Assembly (NCBI GenBank): GCA_902766745.1
Contig: CACXES010000141.1
Location: 1 to 64,000, forward strand
DNA length: 64,000 nt
Direction of reading: 5' to 3'
Source: an uncultured Ruminococcus sp.
Lineage (GTDB): Bacteria; Bacillota; Clostridia; Monoglobales; Monoglobaceae
Part shown: piece after piece, positions 16,682 to 26,603 of the stretch
Position numbering within the stretch: the stretch's first letter is position 1
How the letters are laid out: each line of letters starts with the position of its first letter
Notes under the pieces: generated by a model
Seen by the model: the letters and a program-made list of their open reading frames with translations, nothing else
Told to the model about the DNA's origin: nothing
The model's database searches: none
Program-made: the position numbers and the translations under genes

Positions 16682-16717
16682 AAAAATCGGCGTCTTTAGC
16701 CGCAGACGCCGATTTTT
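16682..16717 (-). terminator. Intrinsic terminator of the fab/acc operon, overlapping the accA stop
   Basis: Perfect 14-bp stem AAAAATCGGCGTCT (16682-16695) / AGACGCCGATTTTT (16704-16717) with an 8-nt loop. On the minus strand it ends in a T-run. The last codons of accA form one arm and its TAA stop (16696-16698) lies in the loop. Confidence 0.88.
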
Positions 16718-17490
16718 CTGAATTTTTTATAGCGAAGCTTGAGCAGGTCATCTGTCGGAAGCTTGCTTTTGTTTTCGATCTCTTCAATGATAAAGCTTTT
16801 TAAGTCGGAGCATATCTCCTCATTGGACTTGGAGCCTTCCTCGATAATTTTGTCTATTACCTTAAAGCGGTATAAATCCTGTGCGGTGAGGTGCAGAGCC
16901 TCTGCCGCCTCGGGAGCCTTTGAGGAATCCTTCCAAAGAATACTCGCACAGCCCTCCGGGGATATTACGGAGTAGACCGAGTTTTCGAGCATCACCGCTG
17001 TATCGCAGACACCGAGAGCAAGCGCTCCGCCGGAGCCGCCCTCACCCACGATTACCGAGATAATCGGGGTCTTAAGTCCCATCATTTCATACAGGTTTTC
17101 GGCGATTGCCTCGCCCTGACCGCGCTTTTCTGCATCAATGCCGCAGTAAGCGCCGGAGCTTCCGATAAAGCAAATAATCGGCCGCTTGAACTTCTCCGCC
17201 TCTTTCATAAGCCGCAGAGCCTTGCGATAGCCTTCGGGGGTGGGACAGCCGAAGTTGCGTCTCATGCGCTCCTCCATGGTGTCGCCCCTCTCCATGCCGA
17301 TTACGGTAACAGGCTTATTTCTTAAGAATCCGATACCGCCGATTATTGCCGCATCATCACCGAAGCGCCTGTCTCCGTGAAATTCGATAAAGTTATCTAT
17401 CATTCGATTGATGTAGTAGCCGCCCATGGGACGATGTCCGCCGCGTGCAGTCACTACCTTTTGGTATGCGCCTTCGCTTTTTGTGTTCAT
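16696..17490 (-). CDS. accA: Acetyl-CoA carboxylase carboxyltransferase subunit alpha
   Basis: With AccD it forms the carboxyltransferase that moves CO2 from carboxybiotin-BCCP to acetyl-CoA, giving malonyl-CoA for fatty-acid synthesis. The 264-aa protein carries the crotonase-like fold motifs FHGDRRFGDDAAIIGG, FIGSSGAYCGIDAEKRGQGEAI, GEGGSGGALALG and SVISPEGCASILWKD. It is shorter than the E. coli form (319 aa), lacking the N-terminal helices, as is usual in Clostridia. A clear AAAGGAG precedes ATG 17490. Last gene of the operon; its 3' end is embedded in the terminator. Confidence 0.94.
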   Translation of the reverse strand: MNTKSEGAYQKVVTARGGHRPMGGYYINRMIDNFIEFHGDRRFGDDAAIIGGIGFLRNKPVTVIGMERGDTMEERMRRNFGCPTPEGYRKALRLMKEAEKFKRPIICFIGSSGAYCGIDAEKRGQGEAIAENLYEMMGLKTPIISVIVGEGGSGGALALGVCDTAVMLENSVYSVISPEGCASILWKDSSKAPEAAEALHLTAQDLYRFKVIDKIIEEGSKSNEEICSDLKSFIIEEIENKSKLPTDDLLKLRYKKFRKIGVCG

Positions 17491-17538
17491 ATAATTTAAC
17501 TCCTTTCACAAAACAACCGTGCGGAAGAATAACAGTGC

Positions 17539-19224
17539 TTACAGCATACTTCTGATTACCTTGCCGCTGATTGTCTTGGGCAGCTCCTCCATAAAGCAAA
17601 CCTTTCTGGGGTACTTATACGGAGCGGTTTTAGACTTGACATAGCTCTGAATTTCGGTTTTAAGCTCCTCGGTGGGCTCTGTACCCTTGGTGAGAACTAT
17701 GCTGGCTTTTATGATTTGACCGCGAATCTCGTCTTTTTCACCGGATACGGCACATTCCACAACATACGGAAGCTCCATGATAACGTGTTCAACCTCAGCA
17801 GGACCGATTTTATAGCCGGAGGACTTGATAACGTCGTCACACCTGCCTATATACCAGAAATAGCCGTCCTCGTCGAACTTAGCTATATCACCGGTGTGAT
17901 AAACTCCGTCCTTCCATGCCGCCTCGGTCAAATCGTCGTTGTGATAGTATCTTTTGAACAGGCCGCAGGGACGGTTTTCGTCGGCACGGAGTATGATTTC
18001 GCCCTCTTCGCCTGCTTTGCATGGCTCGCCGTTATTGTTGATAAGTCCGACGTTAAAGGGCGGAGCAGGCTTGCCCATGGAGCCGGGCTTTGGTGTCATA
18101 CCTATTATTGTACCGATTATCAGAGGTGTTTCGGTTTGACCGAAGCCCTCCATAATCTCTATTCCTGTGGCCTCCTTGAAGAGTGTAAAGACCTCAGGAT
18201 TCAAGCATTCTCCGGCAGTGGTGGCACGTCTGATCGAGCTCAAGTCGTAGTTTTCGGGGTGCTCCTTTATCATCATTCTGTAAGCCGTAGGCGGCGCGCA
18301 GAAGGTGTTTATTTGGGCATCGGATATGGTTGACAGCATCTGAGTCGGTGAAAAGCGGTCAAAGTCGTATACACACAAAACCGCACCGCAGAGCCATTGA
18401 CCGTATAACATTCCCCATACTGCCTTGCCCCAGCCTGTGTCGGCTACGGTCATATGCATATCTCCCGGCTGAATACCGTGCCAGTATTTGGCGGTTACGA
18501 AATGCGAGAGACCGTATCTGAAGTCATGCTCTACGATTTTGGGATAGCCCGTCGTGCCGGACGTGAAGAACATCATCATTGAGTCTGAGCCGCAGGGACT
18601 GTCCGCAGATCTTTCGAATTTGTCGTCAAAGCTTGTATATTCCTCGTCAAAGCAGTGCCAGCCGTCGATTTTACCGCCGACTGAAACCTTTATCGAAGGG
18701 CCTTCTCCGTTTGCCGACGCCTCATCTGACTCGGCGGGGATATTGTCCTCGCAGGTAGATACAATGGCAGATATTCCGCCGAACTTAAAGCGATATTCCA
18801 GATCCGCCGTCTGAAGCTGACTTGTCGCCGGGATAGCAATTGCACCGATCTTGTGCAGTGCGAGAATTGATACCCAGAACTGATAATGCCGCTTTAGAAC
18901 AAGCATAACACGATCTCCGCGTTTGATTCCGAGATGGACGAAGTAGTTCGCCGCACGGCCTACCATGGACATCATTTCACCAAAGGTAAAGTATCTGTGC
19001 CCGCCGTTTTTGCTTATATAAAGCATAGCGGGATTTTCGCTGCATTTGGTGCCGAGTACATCCATTACATCAAACGAAAAGTTGAACTTGTCATCGTTTA
19101 TAAATCGAATTTCGTTCAGCAATCCGTTTTCGTCCACATCCGTGATAATAAATTTTTTGTATATTTCCTCTTCAAGTACACGGCGGAGCTGCGACACTTC
19201 TTCGAGGTCTGTTATGTTATCCAT
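17539..19224 (-). CDS. AMP-forming acyl-CoA synthetase (medium-chain type) inside the fab operon
   Basis: A 561-aa member of the adenylate-forming family. It activates a carboxylic acid to acyl-AMP and then acyl-CoA. The P-loop is MFFTSGTTGYPKIVEH, followed by GFGQTE, YHTGDIAKFDEDGYFWYIGR and the C-terminal hinge and catalytic Lys in LPKTISGKVIR. The organisation resembles medium-chain or acetate-type synthetases. It lies 7 nt after accD and about 50 nt before accA, so it is cotranscribed with both. Its place between accD and accA is unusual; it may feed exogenous or short acids into lipid synthesis. Acid specificity is not predictable from sequence alone. The ribosome site is weak, suggesting coupling to accD. 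Confidence 0.88.
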   Translation of the reverse strand: MDNITDLEEVSQLRRVLEEEIYKKFIITDVDENGLLNEIRFINDDKFNFSFDVMDVLGTKCSENPAMLYISKNGGHRYFTFGEMMSMVGRAANYFVHLGIKRGDRVMLVLKRHYQFWVSILALHKIGAIAIPATSQLQTADLEYRFKFGGISAIVSTCEDNIPAESDEASANGEGPSIKVSVGGKIDGWHCFDEEYTSFDDKFERSADSPCGSDSMMMFFTSGTTGYPKIVEHDFRYGLSHFVTAKYWHGIQPGDMHMTVADTGWGKAVWGMLYGQWLCGAVLCVYDFDRFSPTQMLSTISDAQINTFCAPPTAYRMMIKEHPENYDLSSIRRATTAGECLNPEVFTLFKEATGIEIMEGFGQTETPLIIGTIIGMTPKPGSMGKPAPPFNVGLINNNGEPCKAGEEGEIILRADENRPCGLFKRYYHNDDLTEAAWKDGVYHTGDIAKFDEDGYFWYIGRCDDVIKSSGYKIGPAEVEHVIMELPYVVECAVSGEKDEIRGQIIKASIVLTKGTEPTEELKTEIQSYVKSKTAPYKYPRKVCFMEELPKTISGKVIRSML

Positions 19225-19231
19225 GTTAATT

Positions 19232-20041
19232 TCACCAACCCTTAGTATGCAATTTTAATATGTTGGACAGCGTGTATTTCAAACGCCGTCTGTCTTCAAT
19301 CAAATCGATAAAGCCGTGCTCCAGCAGGAACTCTGCGCGCTGAAAGCCCTCGGGCAGCTTTTCACCGGTGGTCTGTTCGATAACTCTTGCGCCGGCAAAG
19401 CCGATAAGAGCGTTAGGTTCGGCAATTATTATATCGCCCTGCATGGCAAAGCTTGCGGTAATACCGCCCGTGGTCGGGTCGGTCAGGACGGCCGTGTACA
19501 GGTTCCCCGCATCGGCGTGCCGTCGAACCGCACCGCTTACCTTTGCCATCTGCATAAGGGAGTATATGCCCTCCTGCATCCTTGCGCCGCCCGAGGTGAT
19601 AAAACCTATAACGGGGAGCTTTGACTTTGTTGCACTTTCGAACAGGCGAGTGATTTTCTCGCCTACGGCACTGCCCATGCTTCCCATCATAAAGCCTGAA
19701 TCCATGGCGAATACGGCACATTTTATGCCATCTATTTTTGCCTCGCCGCAGACAACGCCCTCAATAAGTCCGCTGTTTTTCTTTGCGGCATCAAGCTTCT
19801 CGGCATAGCCGGGAAAGCTGAGCGGATCGACAGACTTGATATTTTTGTCAAGCTCCTTAAAGCTGCCCTTGTCGATTACCATGTTAAGGCGATCCTTTGC
19901 ACCCATTCTCATATATGCTCCGCATTCGGGGCATATCATAAGATTCTCGCGGAGAGCATCGGAGGGTGTTTCGGCACCGCATTTTTTGCAGGTGATATTT
20001 TCTATTTTATTTTCCTTGTCATTCTTAAACAAATTAAACAT
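19232..20041 (-). CDS. accD: Acetyl-CoA carboxylase carboxyltransferase subunit beta
   Basis: Partner of AccA in malonyl-CoA formation. The 269-aa protein starts with the AccD zinc ribbon (ITCKKCG ... MICPECG, residues about 15-40) followed by the carboxyltransferase domain (FITSGGARMQEGIYSLMQMAK, LTDPTTGGITASFAMQGD, GFAGARVIEQTTGE). ATG 20041 has AGGAT upstream and begins just after the fabZ stop at 20059. Longer upstream readings would overlap fabZ. The biotin carrier (accB) and biotin carboxylase (accC), usually adjacent, are not in this operon. Confidence 0.95.
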   Translation of the reverse strand: MFNLFKNDKENKIENITCKKCGAETPSDALRENLMICPECGAYMRMGAKDRLNMVIDKGSFKELDKNIKSVDPLSFPGYAEKLDAAKKNSGLIEGVVCGEAKIDGIKCAVFAMDSGFMMGSMGSAVGEKITRLFESATKSKLPVIGFITSGGARMQEGIYSLMQMAKVSGAVRRHADAGNLYTAVLTDPTTGGITASFAMQGDIIIAEPNALIGFAGARVIEQTTGEKLPEGFQRAEFLLEHGFIDLIEDRRRLKYTLSNILKLHTKGW

Positions 20042-20058
20042 TATCCTACCCCACATGT

Positions 20059-20478
20059 CTATGCCTTGTCTGCTAAGGCAAATGAAAATTCGGCACTTAC
20101 GCAAAGCTTGCCGTTGACTCTGCCTTCGCCCTTGGCAAAGCAGAAGGGTTCGCGCATCTTAACTATCTCGCACTTTGTCTCGAACAAGTCTCCGGGCTTG
20201 ACCGGAGTTCTGAATTTCACCTTGTCAAGCCCCGTGAAATACGGCAGAGTACCGTCCTTCATCTTGTCCTTTAGGCAGACGCAGACGGACTGCGCCAATA
20301 TTTCGCACAAAATAACGCCGGGAACCACGGGACTTCCGGGGAAATGTCCTTTTAAGAACCATTCGTCACCCGTGATGAGTTTCTTTCCGTATGCCGCACC
20401 GTCGATAAGCTCCGCTTCGTCAATGAGCAGCATATTATCCCTATGCGGCAGAATTTTCTTTATTTCTTCAATATTCAT
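20059..20478 (-). CDS. fabZ: 3-hydroxyacyl-ACP dehydratase
   Basis: Dehydrates 3-hydroxyacyl-ACP to trans-2-enoyl-ACP. The 139-aa hotdog-fold protein has the helix residues LPHRDNMLLID (His) and GHFPGSPVVPGVILCEILAQ (Glu), the FabZ active site. GGAG lies upstream of ATG 20478, which follows the fabF stop by 7 nt. That leaves no room for accB, which usually sits here. Confidence 0.95.
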   Translation of the reverse strand: MNIEEIKKILPHRDNMLLIDEAELIDGAAYGKKLITGDEWFLKGHFPGSPVVPGVILCEILAQSVCVCLKDKMKDGTLPYFTGLDKVKFRTPVKPGDLFETKCEIVKMREPFCFAKGEGRVNGKLCVSAEFSFALADKA

Positions 20479-20485
20479 ATTATTA

Positions 20486-21718
20486 TCACTCCATTGCAGC
20501 AAAGCCTATGCAGGCATTGTGTCCGCCAAAGCCCAGTGAGGACGAAAGGGCAACCTTGATTTCTGTTTGCACCGCCTTGTTCGGCGTGTAGTTCAGGTCA
20601 CATTCCTCGTCGGGTTCTTTAAATCCAATGGTAGGCGGAACCACGTTGTCGCAAATCGCCTTAATCGATGCAATTGCTTCAACCGCACCTGCCGCGCCGA
20701 GAAGGTGTCCCGTCATCGACTTGGTCGAGCTTATGTGAAGCTTATATGCGTCATCGCCGAAGGCGTTTTTGATTGCCTGTGTTTCGGTCTTGTCGTTAAG
20801 CGGTGTGCTTGTCCCGTGGGCGTTGAAATATATTTCCTCCGGGGAGACCTTTCCGAGATATGGCTTTATACAATCGTATATCGCCCTGCCGGATGCCTCG
20901 GCAGATGGGTCGGGAGCTGTGACGTGATGTGCGTCGCAGGTGCTTCCGTAGCCGATAACCTCGGCGTATATTTTTGCGCTTCTTGACACTGCGTGCTCAT
21001 ATTCCTCAAGAACCAGCGCACCGGCACCCTCGCCCATGACAAAGCCCGAACGGCGCTTGTCGAAGGGGATGGAGGCAGCATTTTTATCGGTGGACTCGGT
21101 CAGAGCCATACAGTTTGTAAACGCCGCAACGGAAAGGGGCGAAATTGCAGCGTCAACGCCGCCGGCAATAATCGCATCCGCAAAGCCGCCGGCTATTGCT
21201 CTGTAGGCTTCGCCGACAGCGGTGGTGCCTGTTGCACATGCCGTTGCAACAGAGATGCAGGGACCCTTTGCGTGGTGCTTTATGGCAATGCTTCCGGCAG
21301 CCATGTTAGGAATCATTTTTGGGATAAACAGCGGAGATACTCTCTGCGGTCCCCTTGCCAGCATGTTGTCATGCTCTGAGACAAAGGTGTCAAAGCCGCC
21401 TATCCCGGAGCCAAAGTAAACGCCGAAGCGTTCGCTTGCAACAGCACCCTCAATTCCGCTTTCATCTATCGCCTGCTTAGCCGCCGCCAAAGCGTATTGC
21501 ACAAAGCGGTCGTTTTTGCGTACATCGCCTTTTTCCATATATAAAAGGGGATCGAAGTCCTTGACCTCTGCCGCAAGCTTAACCTTGAAATCCGAGGTAT
21601 CAAACTTTGTTATGGCGTCAATCCCGCATTTTCCGTCTTTCAGATTGTTCCAAAGGGTGTCTGTATCACAGCCCAGAGGGGTGATGGCACCCATGCCTGT
21701 TATTACCACTCTATTCAT
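20486..21718 (-). CDS. fabF: Beta-ketoacyl-ACP synthase II
   Basis: Elongating condensing enzyme of type II fatty-acid synthesis. The 410-aa protein has the catalytic Cys in ISVATACATGTTAVGEA, His in NAHGTSTPLND and His in SMTGHLLGAAGAVEA, with the C-terminal SLGFGGHNACIGF. ATG 21718 has AAGGATG at 9 nt; a TTG two codons upstream lies too close to it. Confidence 0.96.
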   Translation of the reverse strand: MNRVVITGMGAITPLGCDTDTLWNNLKDGKCGIDAITKFDTSDFKVKLAAEVKDFDPLLYMEKGDVRKNDRFVQYALAAAKQAIDESGIEGAVASERFGVYFGSGIGGFDTFVSEHDNMLARGPQRVSPLFIPKMIPNMAAGSIAIKHHAKGPCISVATACATGTTAVGEAYRAIAGGFADAIIAGGVDAAISPLSVAAFTNCMALTESTDKNAASIPFDKRRSGFVMGEGAGALVLEEYEHAVSRSAKIYAEVIGYGSTCDAHHVTAPDPSAEASGRAIYDCIKPYLGKVSPEEIYFNAHGTSTPLNDKTETQAIKNAFGDDAYKLHISSTKSMTGHLLGAAGAVEAIASIKAICDNVVPPTIGFKEPDEECDLNYTPNKAVQTEIKVALSSSLGFGGHNACIGFAAME

Positions 21719-21772
21719 AATCAATCATCCTTTAACTTTTTGTAAATCCGCCTGATTCAGTGCAGCCGGTGG

Positions 21773-22516
21773 CTACATAGCCAGACCGCCGTCTATCCTG
21801 ATAACCTCTCCGGTTATGTAGTCGGACGCCGGTGACGCAAGAAACAGTGCGAGGTTTGCAACATCCTGCGGCTGACCGAGACGTCTAAGCGGAACGGTTT
21901 TTATAAAATCATCGCCGAGGTTTAAGTCTTTGGTCATGTCGGTTTCAATAAAGCCCGGTGCAATGGCGTTGCAGCAGATATTCTTTGAGCCCATTTCCTT
22001 TGCGCAGACCTTTGTCAGGGCGATGACCCCTGCCTTTGAAGCAGAGTAGTTTGCCTGACCCGCAATTCCGTGCAGCCCCGAAACCGAGGCAATATTTATA
22101 ATCTTTCCGTACTTTTTGCGGAGAAAGTTCTTTCCGCACGCCTTTATCATATTAAAAGCACCCTTAAGGTTTACGTCCACAACCGCCTCAAAGTCCTCCT
22201 CGGGCATTGTGAGAAGAAGATTGTCGCGTGTGATACCGGCATCGTTGACCAGAATGTCAACACCGCCGAAGTCCGAAATAATTGCGGCTACCGTTTCCTT
22301 GCACAGATTTCCGTCCGCAACATTGCAGGAGTAAACCTTGCAGCGAACGCCGTAGCTGCCTTCTATGCGCTGCTGAACATCAAGCGCCTCGGACTCAATG
22401 CCGTAATAAACAACGGCGATATCCGCACCGTTTTCGGCAAGCTTTTCCGCAATAGCTGCGCCGATTCCTCTGGACGCACCTGTTACAACCGCTGTCTTTC
22501 CTTTAAGCATTTTCAT
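21773..22516 (-). CDS. fabG: 3-oxoacyl-ACP reductase
   Basis: NADPH-dependent short-chain reductase of the elongation cycle. The 247-aa protein has TGASRGIG (cofactor loop), NDAGITRD, the catalytic Ser in IINIASVSG, YSASK (Tyr-x3-Lys) and the C-terminal ITGEVIRIDGGLAM. ATG 22516 overlaps the end of fabD by 14 nt; ATG 22510 is an alternative with a more normal distance (10 nt) to AAAGGAG. Confidence 0.95.
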   Translation of the reverse strand: MKMLKGKTAVVTGASRGIGAAIAEKLAENGADIAVVYYGIESEALDVQQRIEGSYGVRCKVYSCNVADGNLCKETVAAIISDFGGVDILVNDAGITRDNLLLTMPEEDFEAVVDVNLKGAFNMIKACGKNFLRKKYGKIINIASVSGLHGIAGQANYSASKAGVIALTKVCAKEMGSKNICCNAIAPGFIETDMTKDLNLGDDFIKTVPLRRLGQPQDVANLALFLASPASDYITGEVIRIDGGLAM

Positions 22517-23423
22517 CTATCTCCTTTACGGTTTTTAAAAGAGTGTCATAGTCCTCTGCGGAGTAAATGCCGACCTCCTTCGAGGTCTTTTTAATCAGAC
22601 CGCACAGGGTCTTGCCTATTCCGACCTCGATAAAATCAGTATATCCGTCCGCAATCATATTCTCGATTGTATCTCTCCATAAAACCGGATTTTTCATTTG
22701 TGTTTCAAGCCTTTCGGCTATTTTGTCGTCGTAGGGCTGAGCCGTCTGGTTGGAGTATACCGGGATTTTCGGTGCTGAAAATTCAAAGTCACGCAGCTCT
22801 TTGCCGAATTTCTTCGATGCCTCCTCCATGAACGGCGAATGGAACGCCGCACTTACCGCCAACGGAACGCAGCGGCCGCCAAGCTCGGCAACCTTCTTTT
22901 CAAAGTCGCCCATACTGCTTTTTAAGCCCGAAACCGCTGTTTGTCCGGGCGCATTGTAGTTTACTGCATACAAACCTTCAAATTCTGCCGCAGCCGCTTC
23001 AACGACAGAGGCATCAAGCTTTAAAACGGCACACATTGCCGTCTCTGCGACAGATGCCGCCTCGGCCATGCAGATGCCGCGCTTTGACGCAATCATAAAC
23101 CCATCCGAATCCGAGTACGCACCGGCGTATGCCAGGGCGGGAATTTCACCCAATGAAAAGCCTGCCACGCCGTCAGCGTATATTCCGTGTTCGTTCAGCA
23201 CCTTTGCCGCAGCAAGGTCTGCAAGATACAGACACGGCTGAGTGTTTTTTGTGTCGCGAAGCTCCTCGTCACTGCCCTCGAAGGACTGTTTTATTGTACC
23301 GCCGCGATACTGCTCTGCGGCATCATAGAGAGCCTTGGCGGCAGGGCTGTTGTCATAAAATGACTTGCCCATGCCGCTTCTCTGTGCTCCCTGTCCCGAA
23401 AAAACAAATGCTATTTTACCCAT
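22503..23423 (-). CDS. fabD: Malonyl-CoA:ACP transacylase
   Basis: Transfers malonyl from CoA to ACP. The 306-aa protein has VFSGQGAQRSGMG at the N-terminus, the nucleophile Ser in GFSLGE, the malonate-binding Arg in ASKRG and the catalytic His in AAFHSPFM. It overlaps fabK by 13 nt and fabG by 14 nt, so the whole block is translationally coupled. Confidence 0.95.
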   Translation of the reverse strand: MGKIAFVFSGQGAQRSGMGKSFYDNSPAAKALYDAAEQYRGGTIKQSFEGSDEELRDTKNTQPCLYLADLAAAKVLNEHGIYADGVAGFSLGEIPALAYAGAYSDSDGFMIASKRGICMAEAASVAETAMCAVLKLDASVVEAAAAEFEGLYAVNYNAPGQTAVSGLKSSMGDFEKKVAELGGRCVPLAVSAAFHSPFMEEASKKFGKELRDFEFSAPKIPVYSNQTAQPYDDKIAERLETQMKNPVLWRDTIENMIADGYTDFIEVGIGKTLCGLIKKTSKEVGIYSAEDYDTLLKTVKEIDENA

Positions 23424-24355
23424 TTTTCTGCTCCGTTTAATATATTTTCGGCTTCGGCAAAAACCTCGCCGATGATTTCCGCAGCGGTCTGCTCCCGATT
23501 TACCATTCCGGCAATCTGTCCGGCAAGGAAGCAGCCTTTCTTTTCGTCGCCGTCAACCACTGCTGCTCGCAGAGTTCCGACCGCCATATTTTCAAGGTCA
23601 TCGTTGCTGATTTGCGTGTATTCCGCTTTGGCATAGGCCCTTGAAAATGCCGTCTTTATGCTGCGAACAGGATGTCCGAGGCGCTTGCCCGTTACAATCG
23701 TGGAAGTATCCTTTGCGGCAAGAACCTTATCCTTATAGGCACGGCTGATATTGCACTCCTTTGCGGTCAGGAACCGTGTTCCCATCTGAACGCCCACAGC
23801 TCCCAGCATAAAAGCTGCGGCAACGCCGCGGCCGTCGGCAATTCCGCCTGCCGCAATAACGGGTATGTCAACCGCATCGCATACCTGCGGAACGAGAGCC
23901 ATGGTGGTAAGATCGCCGACGTGACCGCCGGATTCGCCGCCCTCTGCGATGATGGCATCCGCACCGCCTCTGGCGCAAAGCTTTGCCAAAGAGGCGGACG
24001 GAACAACGGGAATCACCGTTATGCCGGCTTCCTTCCACATGGGAATGTACCTTTCGGGATTGCCGGCACCCGTGGTGACCGCCGCAACTTTTTTCTTTGC
24101 AAGAAGTGCGGCGATCTCGTCCACATTTTGACCCATAAGCATAACATTGACGCCGAAGGGCTTATCCGTCAGAGTGCGTGCCTTGTCGATTTCTGCCTCA
24201 ATCTGCGCAATGTTTCCGCTTGCTGCGGATATAATACCGAGGCCGCCGGCGTTTGACACGGCGGCGGCAAGGGCTGCGTCGGAAATATGTGCCATGCCGC
24301 CCTGCAGCAGAGGATATTTGATTCCTGTCATTTCGCAAACAGATGTAGTAATCAC
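23411..24355 (-). CDS. fabK: Enoyl-ACP reductase II (FMN-dependent)
   Basis: Last reductive step of the elongation cycle, using an FMN TIM barrel related to 2-nitropropane dioxygenase rather than the FabI fold. The 314-aa protein has YPLLQGGMAHISDAALAAAVS, AEGGESGGHVG (phosphate loop region), IAAGGIADGRGVAAAFMLGA and QMGTRFL. The start is a GTG at 24355 with GGAGAGG upstream. No fabI or fabL is present in the window, so FabK is the enoyl reductase of this operon. Confidence 0.94.
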   Translation of the reverse strand: MITTSVCEMTGIKYPLLQGGMAHISDAALAAAVSNAGGLGIISAASGNIAQIEAEIDKARTLTDKPFGVNVMLMGQNVDEIAALLAKKKVAAVTTGAGNPERYIPMWKEAGITVIPVVPSASLAKLCARGGADAIIAEGGESGGHVGDLTTMALVPQVCDAVDIPVIAAGGIADGRGVAAAFMLGAVGVQMGTRFLTAKECNISRAYKDKVLAAKDTSTIVTGKRLGHPVRSIKTAFSRAYAKAEYTQISNDDLENMAVGTLRAAVVDGDEKKGCFLAGQIAGMVNREQTAAEIIGEVFAEAENILNGAEKWVK

Positions 24356-24372
24356 TTTATCTAAACCTCTCC

Positions 24373-24594
24373 TTACGCAAGCTTTGAATCAATGTATTCA
24401 ACAAGCTCTTTTACAGATTTACCTGCGTCTGCAGGGGTGATTTCGATACCGAATTCATCCTCTGTCTCCATCATGATTTCAACCGCATCGAGAGAATCTA
24501 TTCCGAGATCCTCAAAGGTGGAATCCTCTGTGATTTCGCTTTCGTCCATGTCCAAGTGCTCTGCTATTAATTTGATTACCTTTTCAATTGTCAT
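24373..24594 (-). CDS. acpP: Acyl carrier protein
   Basis: A 73-aa acidic four-helix carrier of the growing acyl chain. Ser in [13 protein letters not shown] is the 4'-phosphopantetheine site. ATG 24594 ([10 protein letters not shown]) has GGAGG 8 nt upstream; a further ATG at 24609 overlaps that SD and is rejected. A repeat element lies between acpP and fabH. Confidence 0.95.
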
Positions 24595-24682
24595 TTTTAA
24601 ATCCTCCATAATAATAAATATTTTTATTTTATAATTTTTTATTTTTTTCGTTTACCTCGCACGGCAGCACCGTACGAATTAT

Positions 24683-24779
24683 AAATCCGAAATAATTTTA
24701 TTGAATAATTGCCCGAAGCCCTGTTCCGACCTGCCGCTCCCGGTCGGCAATGTAAAAATTATTTCGCATTTTACAATCG
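24683..24779. repeat. Interspersed inverted-repeat element, copy B (deleted form)
   Basis: Left arm AAATCCGAAATAATTTT (24683-24699) and right arm AAAATTATTTCGCATTT (24755-24771, one mismatch), continuing into the outer end TTTTACAATCG. The centre contains GACCTGCCGCTCCCGGTCGG-type short pairing. Compared with copy C the right inner arm and outer end are fused, consistent with an internal deletion. It sits inside the fab operon, between fabH and acpP. Confidence 0.75.
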
Positions 24780-24831
24780 ACTGTAATATCTATAATATAT
24801 TTATGATAAAACATATTGCGAGCCGTATGCA

Positions 24832-25785
24832 TCAATATCTTACAACGCAGGCTGCGCTTGATAAGCCGCCTCCGAAAGCGGAAAGAACTATTGTATCTCC
24901 GCGCTTGAGTCTTCCGGAGTCCTCGAGCTCTGACAGAGCAATGGGGACGCTTGCCGCAGATGTGTTGCCGTATTTATCTATATTTATAAAGAACTTGTCA
25001 ATATCAATTTTAAGACGCTTTGATGCAAATTCGATAATCCTTATGTTTGCCTGGTGAGTTACAACATGATCTATTTGGTCAAGAGTAAGTCCGGCCTGTT
25101 CGACAACATACTTGATATCGTTGACGATTTTGTTGACGGCAAACTTAAATGTTTCCTGTCCGTCCATAAAGATCGTGGGTGCTTCTGCCACTCCCTCGTA
25201 AAAGGGTGAAACTCCGACGTAGGAAGGGATTTTTATCACATCCGAACCGCCCTGTGTGGAAAGATGCGAGGATAGGTAATTTTCCCCCGGTGCTATCAAT
25301 GCCGCACCGGCTCCGTCTCCGAAGATAACGCAGGTGGAGCGGTCATTCCAGTCCATAAGCTTGCTCAGGCGTTCTGCACCAATAACCAACGCATGTCTTA
25401 TTCCCCCGCGCTGCAGAAATGCCGCCGCCGTATCCAATGCAAATATAAAACCGCTGCAGGCGGAATTTATATCAAAGCAGGGACAGGAGGCACCTATTGC
25501 CTGCTCCACTGTTCCGGCAACTGTCGGACAAACAGTGTCCGAGGAGATTGTTGCCGCAACAATCAGATCTATCTCATCGGGTCTGACATCTGCCTTTTTG
25601 AGGGCGGATTCTGCTGCCTTTATTGCAAAGTCGGCAGCCGTTTCGTTAACCGATACGTGTCTTTCGCGTATCCCGACTCTTTGTACAATCCATTCGTCTG
25701 AGGTTTCTACCATTTTTGATAAGTCATCGTTGGTGATTACCTTTTCCGGTACATAAAATCCGGTACTGAGTATTTTTATCGCCAT
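24832..25785 (-). CDS. fabH: Beta-ketoacyl-ACP synthase III
   Basis: Initiates fatty-acid synthesis by condensing acyl-CoA with malonyl-ACP. The 317-aa protein has the catalytic Cys in INSACSGF, His in THQANIRI and Asn in YGNTSAAS. GGGAGGTG lies 6 nt before ATG 25785; longer readings run through the ribosome site. First gene of the fab operon, with a TetR operator about 40-60 nt upstream of its start. Confidence 0.96.
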   Translation of the reverse strand: MAIKILSTGFYVPEKVITNDDLSKMVETSDEWIVQRVGIRERHVSVNETAADFAIKAAESALKKADVRPDEIDLIVAATISSDTVCPTVAGTVEQAIGASCPCFDINSACSGFIFALDTAAAFLQRGGIRHALVIGAERLSKLMDWNDRSTCVIFGDGAGAALIAPGENYLSSHLSTQGGSDVIKIPSYVGVSPFYEGVAEAPTIFMDGQETFKFAVNKIVNDIKYVVEQAGLTLDQIDHVVTHQANIRIIEFASKRLKIDIDKFFINIDKYGNTSAASVPIALSELEDSGRLKRGDTIVLSAFGGGLSSAACVVRY

Positions 25786-25824: not shown

Positions 25825-25845
25825 TTCAGCACACAGTGTGCTTTT
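25825..25845. promoter_or_regulatory. Predicted TetR-type operator in the fabH leader/promoter
   Basis: TTCAGCACA-CAG-TGTGCTTTT, a 9-3-9 dyad with 7 of 9 positions symmetrical. It is nearly the same as the perfect dyad at 26551-26571 in front of the TetR gene. An AT-rich TATAAA stretch lies just upstream on the minus strand; a -35 box is not clear. Confidence 0.75.
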
Positions 25846-25855
25846 ATATTTTTAA

Positions 25856-25874
25856 GGAAATACGAGGTATTTCC
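25856..25874. other. Short perfect hairpin between tetR and fabH
   Basis: GGAAATAC / GTATTTCC, 8 bp, with a 3-nt loop. On the minus strand it is followed by TTAAAAATAT rather than a T-run, so it is at best a weak terminator for the tetR transcript. Confidence 0.3.
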
Positions 25875-25900
25875 CAATCTTATTCGATTTTATATTTAAG

Positions 25901-26533
25901 CTACGCTATGATTCCGCGAAGCTCGCTGTCTCTGCGTTTAAGCTCTTCTATGGCATCAGCTGTGACAATGCCGCCGAACAGAGCACATACTCCGAACCGA
26001 AAATAATCTATGGCTTCCTCTTTGGAAAGACCACGGTTGACTGCATCGGCGTTAAAGCCTCTGAAAAAGCACCAGATGGTGTAGCTCAGCTTATCGGAGT
26101 CCGTGTTTTTAAGCTTGCCCATCTTTATGCCTATGTCAATTATCTCCTTTATCCTGTCTGTCCACCACCGGTGATTTGCTTCGGTGGTGGAGTCATATTC
26201 AAACATATACTGGTTGAATTCCTTTTTGACATCATAGGTGTTAAGTAAAATCTTGATTGTGATATCAGTTATATAGCCGAAAAAGTCCTCATGTATATCG
26301 TATTCTGAAAGTAAGCTTTCGTGCATTTTTAAAACCGTACGGCGATATACCTTTTCGAGAACCTCGTTTACGTTGGCGAAGCGGTTGTAAAACACACGGT
26401 TAGAGACGTCCATCTTTTGCAGAATCTTTCTGACGGTGACGTTCCGCGCTCCGTATTCCTTTGCGAGCTCACCTGCAACGGCTATGATTTCTTCAGAGAT
26501 TTCGTCCTTGATCAGCTTGTCGGAATCGGTCAT
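25901..26533 (-). CDS. TetR family regulator, probable repressor of the fab operon
   Basis: A 210-aa one-component regulator. The N-terminal TetR HTH spans about residues 12-60 (IIAVAGELAKEYGARNVTV ... VSNRVFYNRFANVNEVLEKVY). The C-terminal ligand domain is all-helical with no recognisable family signature. It lies directly upstream of fabH on the same strand. Identical dyads at its own start site and at fabH strongly suggest that it represses both. The ligand might be an acyl-CoA or acyl-ACP by analogy with lipid regulators; that is inference. The SD is GAGGAGG. Confidence 0.88.
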   Translation of the reverse strand: MTDSDKLIKDEISEEIIAVAGELAKEYGARNVTVRKILQKMDVSNRVFYNRFANVNEVLEKVYRRTVLKMHESLLSEYDIHEDFFGYITDITIKILLNTYDVKKEFNQYMFEYDSTTEANHRWWTDRIKEIIDIGIKMGKLKNTDSDKLSYTIWCFFRGFNADAVNRGLSKEEAIDYFRFGVCALFGGIVTADAIEELKRRDSELRGIIA

Positions 26534-26550
26534 AGTTCACAGCCTCCTCT

Positions 26551-26571
26551 TTCAGCACATACTGTGCTGAA
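26551..26571. promoter_or_regulatory. Perfect TetR-type operator at the tetR start site
   Basis: TTCAGCACA-TAC-TGTGCTGAA, a perfect 9-3-9 dyad. It lies immediately downstream of the tetR promoter -10 box and covers the expected transcription start, a position for steric repression. Confidence 0.82.
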
Positions 26572-26574
26572 AAA

Positions 26575-26603
26575 ATATTACCATAGATTAAATATTTTGT
26601 CAA
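26575..26603 (-). promoter_or_regulatory. Promoter of the TetR regulator gene
   Basis: On the minus strand a perfect TTGACA (26598-26603), a 17-nt spacer and TAATAT (26575-26580). The operator begins 4 nt downstream of the -10 box. Confidence 0.75.

Follow-up and report, generated by a model that had tools for sequence, protein, structure and literature searches.

According to a 2016 review, the global repressors that act on lipid synthesis genes of Gram-positive bacteria are FapR and FabT (PMC5052256). In the window analysed here, i. e., the whole 64,000-nt stretch of DNA, the genes for fatty acid biosynthesis are preceded by a gene for a TetR-family regulator, and similar palindromes lie in front of tetR and of fabH. 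An earlier note took these palindromes for operators at two promoters, through which the TetR protein would repress the fab operon as well as itself. The locus raises the question of whether this regulator fills the place of FapR and FabT, and at which step of transcription each palindrome would act.

The regulator, its operon, and two palindromes

All genes concerned are encoded on the minus strand. Behind tetR (25901..26533), sequence models identify fabH (24832..25785, with ATG 25785 as the likely start), acpP for the acyl carrier protein (24373..24609), fabD (22503..23423), fabG (21773..22516), fabF (20486..21724), fabZ (20059..20502), and accD (19232..20104), with fabK for an enoyl-ACP reductase (23411..24355; 420.5 bits, slightly below the cut-off of 453.1) located between acpP and fabD. 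Sequence models also support an AMP-binding acyl-CoA synthetase gene (17539..19224) between accD and the last member of the gene string, an accA-like gene for carboxyltransferase alpha (16696..17490), the homologue of which follows accD in a related locus (L011). The synthetase gene is missing between accD and accA in L011, L055, L062, and L156. Like the relatives viewed, the window operon (16696-25785) comprises accD and accA without adjacent accB or accC.

The tetR product (210 aa) was assigned to the TetR family based on Pfam, on homologues retrieved with a dedicated profile (A1, see below), and on a kept recognition segment. It passes the threshold of PF00440 (TetR_N; 24.6 bits, cut-off 24) and matches this domain only; a comparison with NCBIfam models gave no match, and the winged-helix signature of the MarR family, which would be expected for FabT, was not found in the protein. 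An AlphaFold2 model contains ten helices (pLDDT 78.7, moderate confidence) and has TetR regulators as its top Foldseek matches in the PDB, which points, at the same moderate confidence, to the all-helical TetR fold. The recognition segment reads SNRVFYNRF, and 28 of the 29 TetR copies translated carry [TSA]NRVFYNR[FY], the 29th (L099) having been left out of the judgement on this segment. A search of the window genome for FabT homologues (E≤1e-8) returned none, and the FapR model NF003359 exceeded its cut-off in none of the 38 genomes of the family to which the window genome belongs, the window genome included. Among structure-solved lipid regulators, FadR (3whb) alone is matched, and weakly so, over the N-terminal residues 17-96 (E 1e-4); FabR, DesT, and FasR are absent among the profile matches, and full-length kinship to B. 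subtilis FadR, FabR, DesT, or FasR is not apparent from the sequence.

Upstream of tetR, a promoter scan revealed the -35 hexamer TTGACA (26598..26603, minus strand) and, after a spacer of 17 bp, the -10 hexamer TAATAT with TG in front (26575..26580, minus strand). The palindrome O1 (26551..26571), a perfect 9-3-9 dyad with 0 mismatches (TTCAGCACA-TAC-TGTGCTGAA), begins 3 bp past the -10 and stops 17 bp before the ATG (26533), and both motif search and promoter comparison place it over the predicted +1. The dyad had been said to cover the tetR start site, which holds for this predicted transcription start, but not for the start codon. O1 would hence be a palindromic operator at the regulator's own promoter, a feature by which TetR-family members are recognised and which nearly all homologues examined share. 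The matching dyad in front of fabH was recovered as well (O2, 25825..25845; TTCAGCACA-CAG-TGTGCTTTT). It is placed in the tetR-fabH gap, roughly 40 bp ahead of the probable ATG of fabH, and its three mismatches all fall within one outer arm, so that one half matches completely and the other in its inner part. Around O2, however, no sigma-70-type promoter was found. Of the operators proposed at the tetR and fabH promoters, the former thus stands, whereas the latter, as is true of nearly all homologous sites, lies behind a predicted RNA hairpin (GGAAATAC-CTC-GTATTTCC; 25856..25874, minus strand), separated from the O2 core by a 12-nt A/T linker (TTAAAAATATAA; 25844..25855, minus strand). That the window holds no other copy was borne out (none with up to three mismatches, 0.03 expected by chance), and a scan of the 2.85-Mb genome returned O1 and O2 as the sole sites whose 14-base core, CAGCACA-N3-TGTGCTG, shows no more than one mismatch. 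The one extra match, weak and on a different contig (TTCAGAAAAGGTTCTGCTGAA; G000 C67), has three mismatches and was taken as chance.

Distribution across Clostridia and further candidate targets

Comparing the TetR sequence alone with the named genomes yielded two loci only, and a class-wide profile search was needed, for which profile A1 was built from eight TetR sequences and run against 391 Clostridia genomes (most of them drafts, the named ones metagenome bins). The regulator was found in 28 of these (about 7 %), belonging to 20 genera and scattered over many families. Any dyad site was present in 25 of the 28 TetR genomes as compared to 83 of the 363 others (Fisher p 2e-12), and at least two sites in 19 as compared to 11 (Fisher p 3e-18), p-values that overstate independence because related genomes share ancestry. 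The dyads of TetR-bearing genomes mostly lie upstream of tetR and fabH. Among relatives in which the two genes are neighbours, G023, G026, G037, and L011 carry one to three copies upstream of fabH; G037 has three perfect sites in this leader and none at the tetR promoter. Hardly any variation is seen in the operator core GCAC...GTGC across 74 sites, although the mismatch limit applied at collection favours this outcome. TetR is present without a site at up to one mismatch in G059, G062, and G413, and the tetR-fabH pairs of L081, L100, L101, and L102 have degenerate or no leader sites. Two kinds of candidates were set aside, namely a core-like site at the same place within fabF of G023 (L055:6560-6580) and G026 (L056:5097-5117), which is probably a coding coincidence, and a site of G156 (C214) inside a long ORF without a linked lipid gene.

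G361 has its tetR on a different contig from the fab operon, and the unlinked fabH carries the perfect 21-mer at its promoter, which supports control of fab genes by TetR. Candidate targets elsewhere, i. e., DegV/FakB-type genes, acyl-CoA synthetases, and an alcohol dehydrogenase (Fe-ADH) with an aldehyde dehydrogenase, each of the three kinds being marked by the dyad in genomes with unlinked tetR as well, lend support to a control of lipid genes in general. In G124, whose tetR is on a separate contig, two sites precede a gene with a start that, as judged by its translation alone, resembles DegV/FakB. A Pfam DegV gene with an upstream site adjoins tetR in G279, and G151 has a DegV gene behind tetR and its promoter site. 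Fatty acid binding by these DegV proteins is plausible by analogy with the FakB literature. AMP-binding enzymes adjoin TetR or its site outside the window, too: G154 shows the order dyad-tetR-AMP-binding enzyme, and G038, with no site at tetR, has one site upstream of such an enzyme and two upstream of Fe-ADH, which is followed by aldehyde dehydrogenase. A site also lies upstream of a similar Fe-ADH in G381. In L072 (8545-8611), an Fe-ADH/aldehyde dehydrogenase pair is preceded by two operators, of which the second follows a hairpin (GCGGA..TCCGC). In both G381 and G262, tetR has a patatin-like phospholipase gene as its neighbour on the other strand (L095:478-1329, L097:2262-3131, L165:2728-3579). 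In G021 (L060:5034-11200) and G020 (L061:443-6592), the dyad and tetR head a string that reads, by gene names taken from translations, recA-recX-rimO-pgsA-plsX-fabH, and recA is thus found downstream of a lipid-type regulator.

Other regulators were encountered in the place of tetR. Immediately ahead of fabH, G032 encodes a MarR protein with FabT as its best solved relative (6jbx, E 5e-23), and G034 has a different MarR-type gene (Pfam MarR_2); G035 and G036 are almost identical to G034 in this upstream DNA. The dyad was absent from the fabH upstream regions of all four genomes. Mutual exclusion of FabT and TetR in genus g8 had been considered as a sign of replacement, an argument that was dropped because seven FabT-bearing genomes have no fabH match and carry a MarR gene that is not part of any fab operon. 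In these seven g8 genomes (L171-L177), the FabT homologue has a relative of the acyl-CoA synthetase genes as its neighbour.

Comparative genomics lends strong support to the earlier proposal that TetR regulates both its own gene and the fab operon, given the conserved dyad, its co-occurrence with the regulator, the conserved recognition helix, and the unlinked perfect dyad of G361. Judged from these sequence patterns, there is little reason to doubt that the window TetR binds both dyads and controls the fab genes, and it very likely acts as a repressor.

Promoter sites, leader sites, and competing readings

The 74 sites fall into a promoter class (n=30; tetR promoters, unlinked fabH, and first sites of other targets) and a leader class (n=44; operators inside transcripts, window O2 among them), both of which were defined after the pattern had been seen and on the same genomes. 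All 30 promoter-class sites lie just downstream of -35/-10 elements matching at least 10 of 12 consensus bases. For the 44 leader-class sites, no promoter rose above shuffled background (best 9 of 12 consensus bases), and extended -10 elements were absent outside L086 and L088. A GC-closed hairpin lies upstream of 32 of the 44 leader sites (0.8 expected from dinucleotide shuffles) as compared to 0 of the 30 promoter sites; 12 leader sites have none. The distance from hairpin end to operator core is 10-13 nt in 25 leader sites and 17-18 nt in seven, six of the latter being tandem sites of L086 and L088, where one dyad serves as the hairpin of the next. A stricter hairpin rule retains 24 of the 44 leader sites, with a distance of 11.75 ± 0.92 nt and linkers in which 273 of 282 positions are A/T. 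In accordance with these counts, the 45 nt upstream of 42 leader sites have a median folding-energy z of -2.8, as compared to 0 for 25 promoter sites. As hairpins were selected for pairing, pairing alone is no evidence, and the case for a hairpin module is built on the comparison with shuffled sequence, the difference between leader and promoter sites, and the constancy of the distance. The hairpins at the third leader site of L089 (CAGGGATTGCAAATCCCTG) and L091 (CAGGAAAGCAGACGCTTTCCTG) differ in sequence while pairing is kept, and operator spacing is identical in both loci (62 and 65 bp). Since the linkers are mostly A-rich rather than U-rich, the leader hairpins are not standard intrinsic terminators, and an Rfam search of the loci tested matched tRNAs alone. 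The fabH leaders of L086 and L088 contain four tandem operators at an exact 34-bp spacing with TTGAC-like motifs nearby, and a hidden promoter may therefore exist there.

Ordinary repression at two promoters would make O2 a normal operator of a fabH promoter that the scan missed and the hairpin a terminator of tetR. In favour of this reading, the promoter of the unlinked fabH in G361 is near consensus and has the operator at its +1, and the first hairpin past tetR is often terminator-like (CAGAG..CTCTG, then T4-6). A tetR terminator, however, does not explain why second and third leader sites also lie behind hairpins, nor why the same is true of second sites before DegV (context of L157 and L161) and Fe-ADH; with leader -35/-10 scores no better than shuffled (apart from the extended -10 of L086/L088), we consider this reading rather unlikely. 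Less still is to be expected from DNA looping, in which the repressor would bridge O1 and O2 over about 640-730 bp and thereby strengthen repression of the tetR promoter. Although most linked loci do combine one promoter site with at least one leader site 636-812 bp away, the O1-O2 distance follows the length of tetR and varies, G037 has leader sites only, and the fixed-distance hairpins would be left unexplained. TetR-family proteins, moreover, are usually dimers that do not bridge.

Whether the regulator could be an activator deserves mention, since mycobacterial FasR and MabR activate fatty acid synthase genes (PMC5541348). The promoter-class operators, however, sit just past the -10, where a bound protein would block, and their promoters come close to consensus as they are, which renders activation very improbable. 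Hardly credible is, finally, that the dyads are not protein sites but RNA hairpins, for example, antisense terminators with a T-rich tract on the opposite strand. While the plus strand of O2 followed by TTTATATTTT does score terminator-like, RNA pairing would survive in only 8 of the 28 deviating pairs of the leader dyads, the dyad co-occurs with TetR, and O1 is placed at the transcription start; an RNA nature of the dyad was rejected because most deviations break pairing.

Proposed mechanism and relation to known systems

Under the repressor model, which appears probable as a whole, the tetR product would be a dedicated repressor of membrane-lipid genes that binds the dyad as a dimer, with O1 serving to block initiation, O2 to control read-through, and a ligand reporting acyl-chain supply (acyl-ACP, acyl-CoA, or fatty acid) setting DNA binding. 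At O1, the repressor would cover the +1 of the tetR promoter and thus exert autorepression. As no recognisable promoter precedes fabH, the fab operon is probably transcribed by read-through from the tetR promoter, and O2 would probably control this read-through and not a fabH promoter, since leader sites lack promoters and mostly follow hairpins. The promoterless O2, the perfect leader-only sites of G037, and the fixed hairpin geometry all fit such a control. Provided that transcription is driven from upstream, as we infer, the 44 leader sites lie within transcribed regions and away from promoters, as is typical of roadblocks. Repressor bound at O2 would stall elongating RNA polymerase just beyond the hairpin that ends 12 nt upstream, and read-through into fabH...accA would be cut off until the repressor leaves; the hairpin may promote release of the polymerase or prevent its backtracking. 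On balance, the arrangement speaks somewhat in favour of leader operators acting on elongating polymerase. More tentatively, the leader may be read as a repressor-gated terminator, that is, a hairpin without U-tract and a TetR operator about 12 nt on that would terminate only when repressor-bound. Stacked one to three times before fabH, such gated terminators could conceivably set the read-through from the autorepressed tetR promoter into the complete operon for fatty acid synthesis.

The closest parallel in gene order is FabT (MarR family; streptococci and enterococci), a repressor whose gene likewise stands immediately ahead of fabH and which binds to a palindrome at its own and the fab promoters (PMC9083066), and a FabT homologue occupies the slot of tetR before fabH in G032. 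Protein family and fold are unrelated, however, the palindrome is another, and hairpin-operator leaders are not described for FabT. FapR (Bacillus, Staphylococcus, Listeria, and C. difficile) is likewise an autoregulated global repressor of fatty acid and phospholipid synthesis (PMC5052256), but possesses a hot-dog ligand domain and binds malonyl-CoA/ACP. Control of fatty acid genes by TetR-family proteins is known from FabR (E. coli), DesT (Pseudomonas), FadR (B. subtilis), and FasR (mycobacteria), with ligands of the acyl-CoA or acyl-ACP type where known (PMC5052256, PMC5541348). The window TetR differs from these in its operator and its putative regulon (the whole fabH-accA operon), and leader modules have not been reported for them. 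In the open-licence literature, no prior description of the dyad motif or of a TetR regulator with fab genes in Clostridia was found, although an earlier one may exist elsewhere. An unrelated type of repressor would fill the place of FapR and FabT in many Clostridia, and its dyad is sharp enough for target prediction in draft genomes, including likely genes for fatty acid uptake and activation.

With regard to elongation, roadblocks by LacI (experimental) as well as by CodY and CcpA, with a role of Mfd, are established (PMC4132739, PMC10310618). The proposed action of O2 resembles these in that a DNA-bound regulator in a transcribed region would halt elongating polymerase (PMC4132739, PMC10310618). 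In descriptions of the LacI, CodY, and CcpA cases, in contrast, it is Mfd that removes the stalled polymerase, and no roadblock with an RNA hairpin at constant spacing ahead of it was found described in the open-licence literature. The fixed module of hairpin, 12 nt, and operator suggests a way in which a repressor on the DNA could be coupled to RNA structure while the polymerase is elongating.
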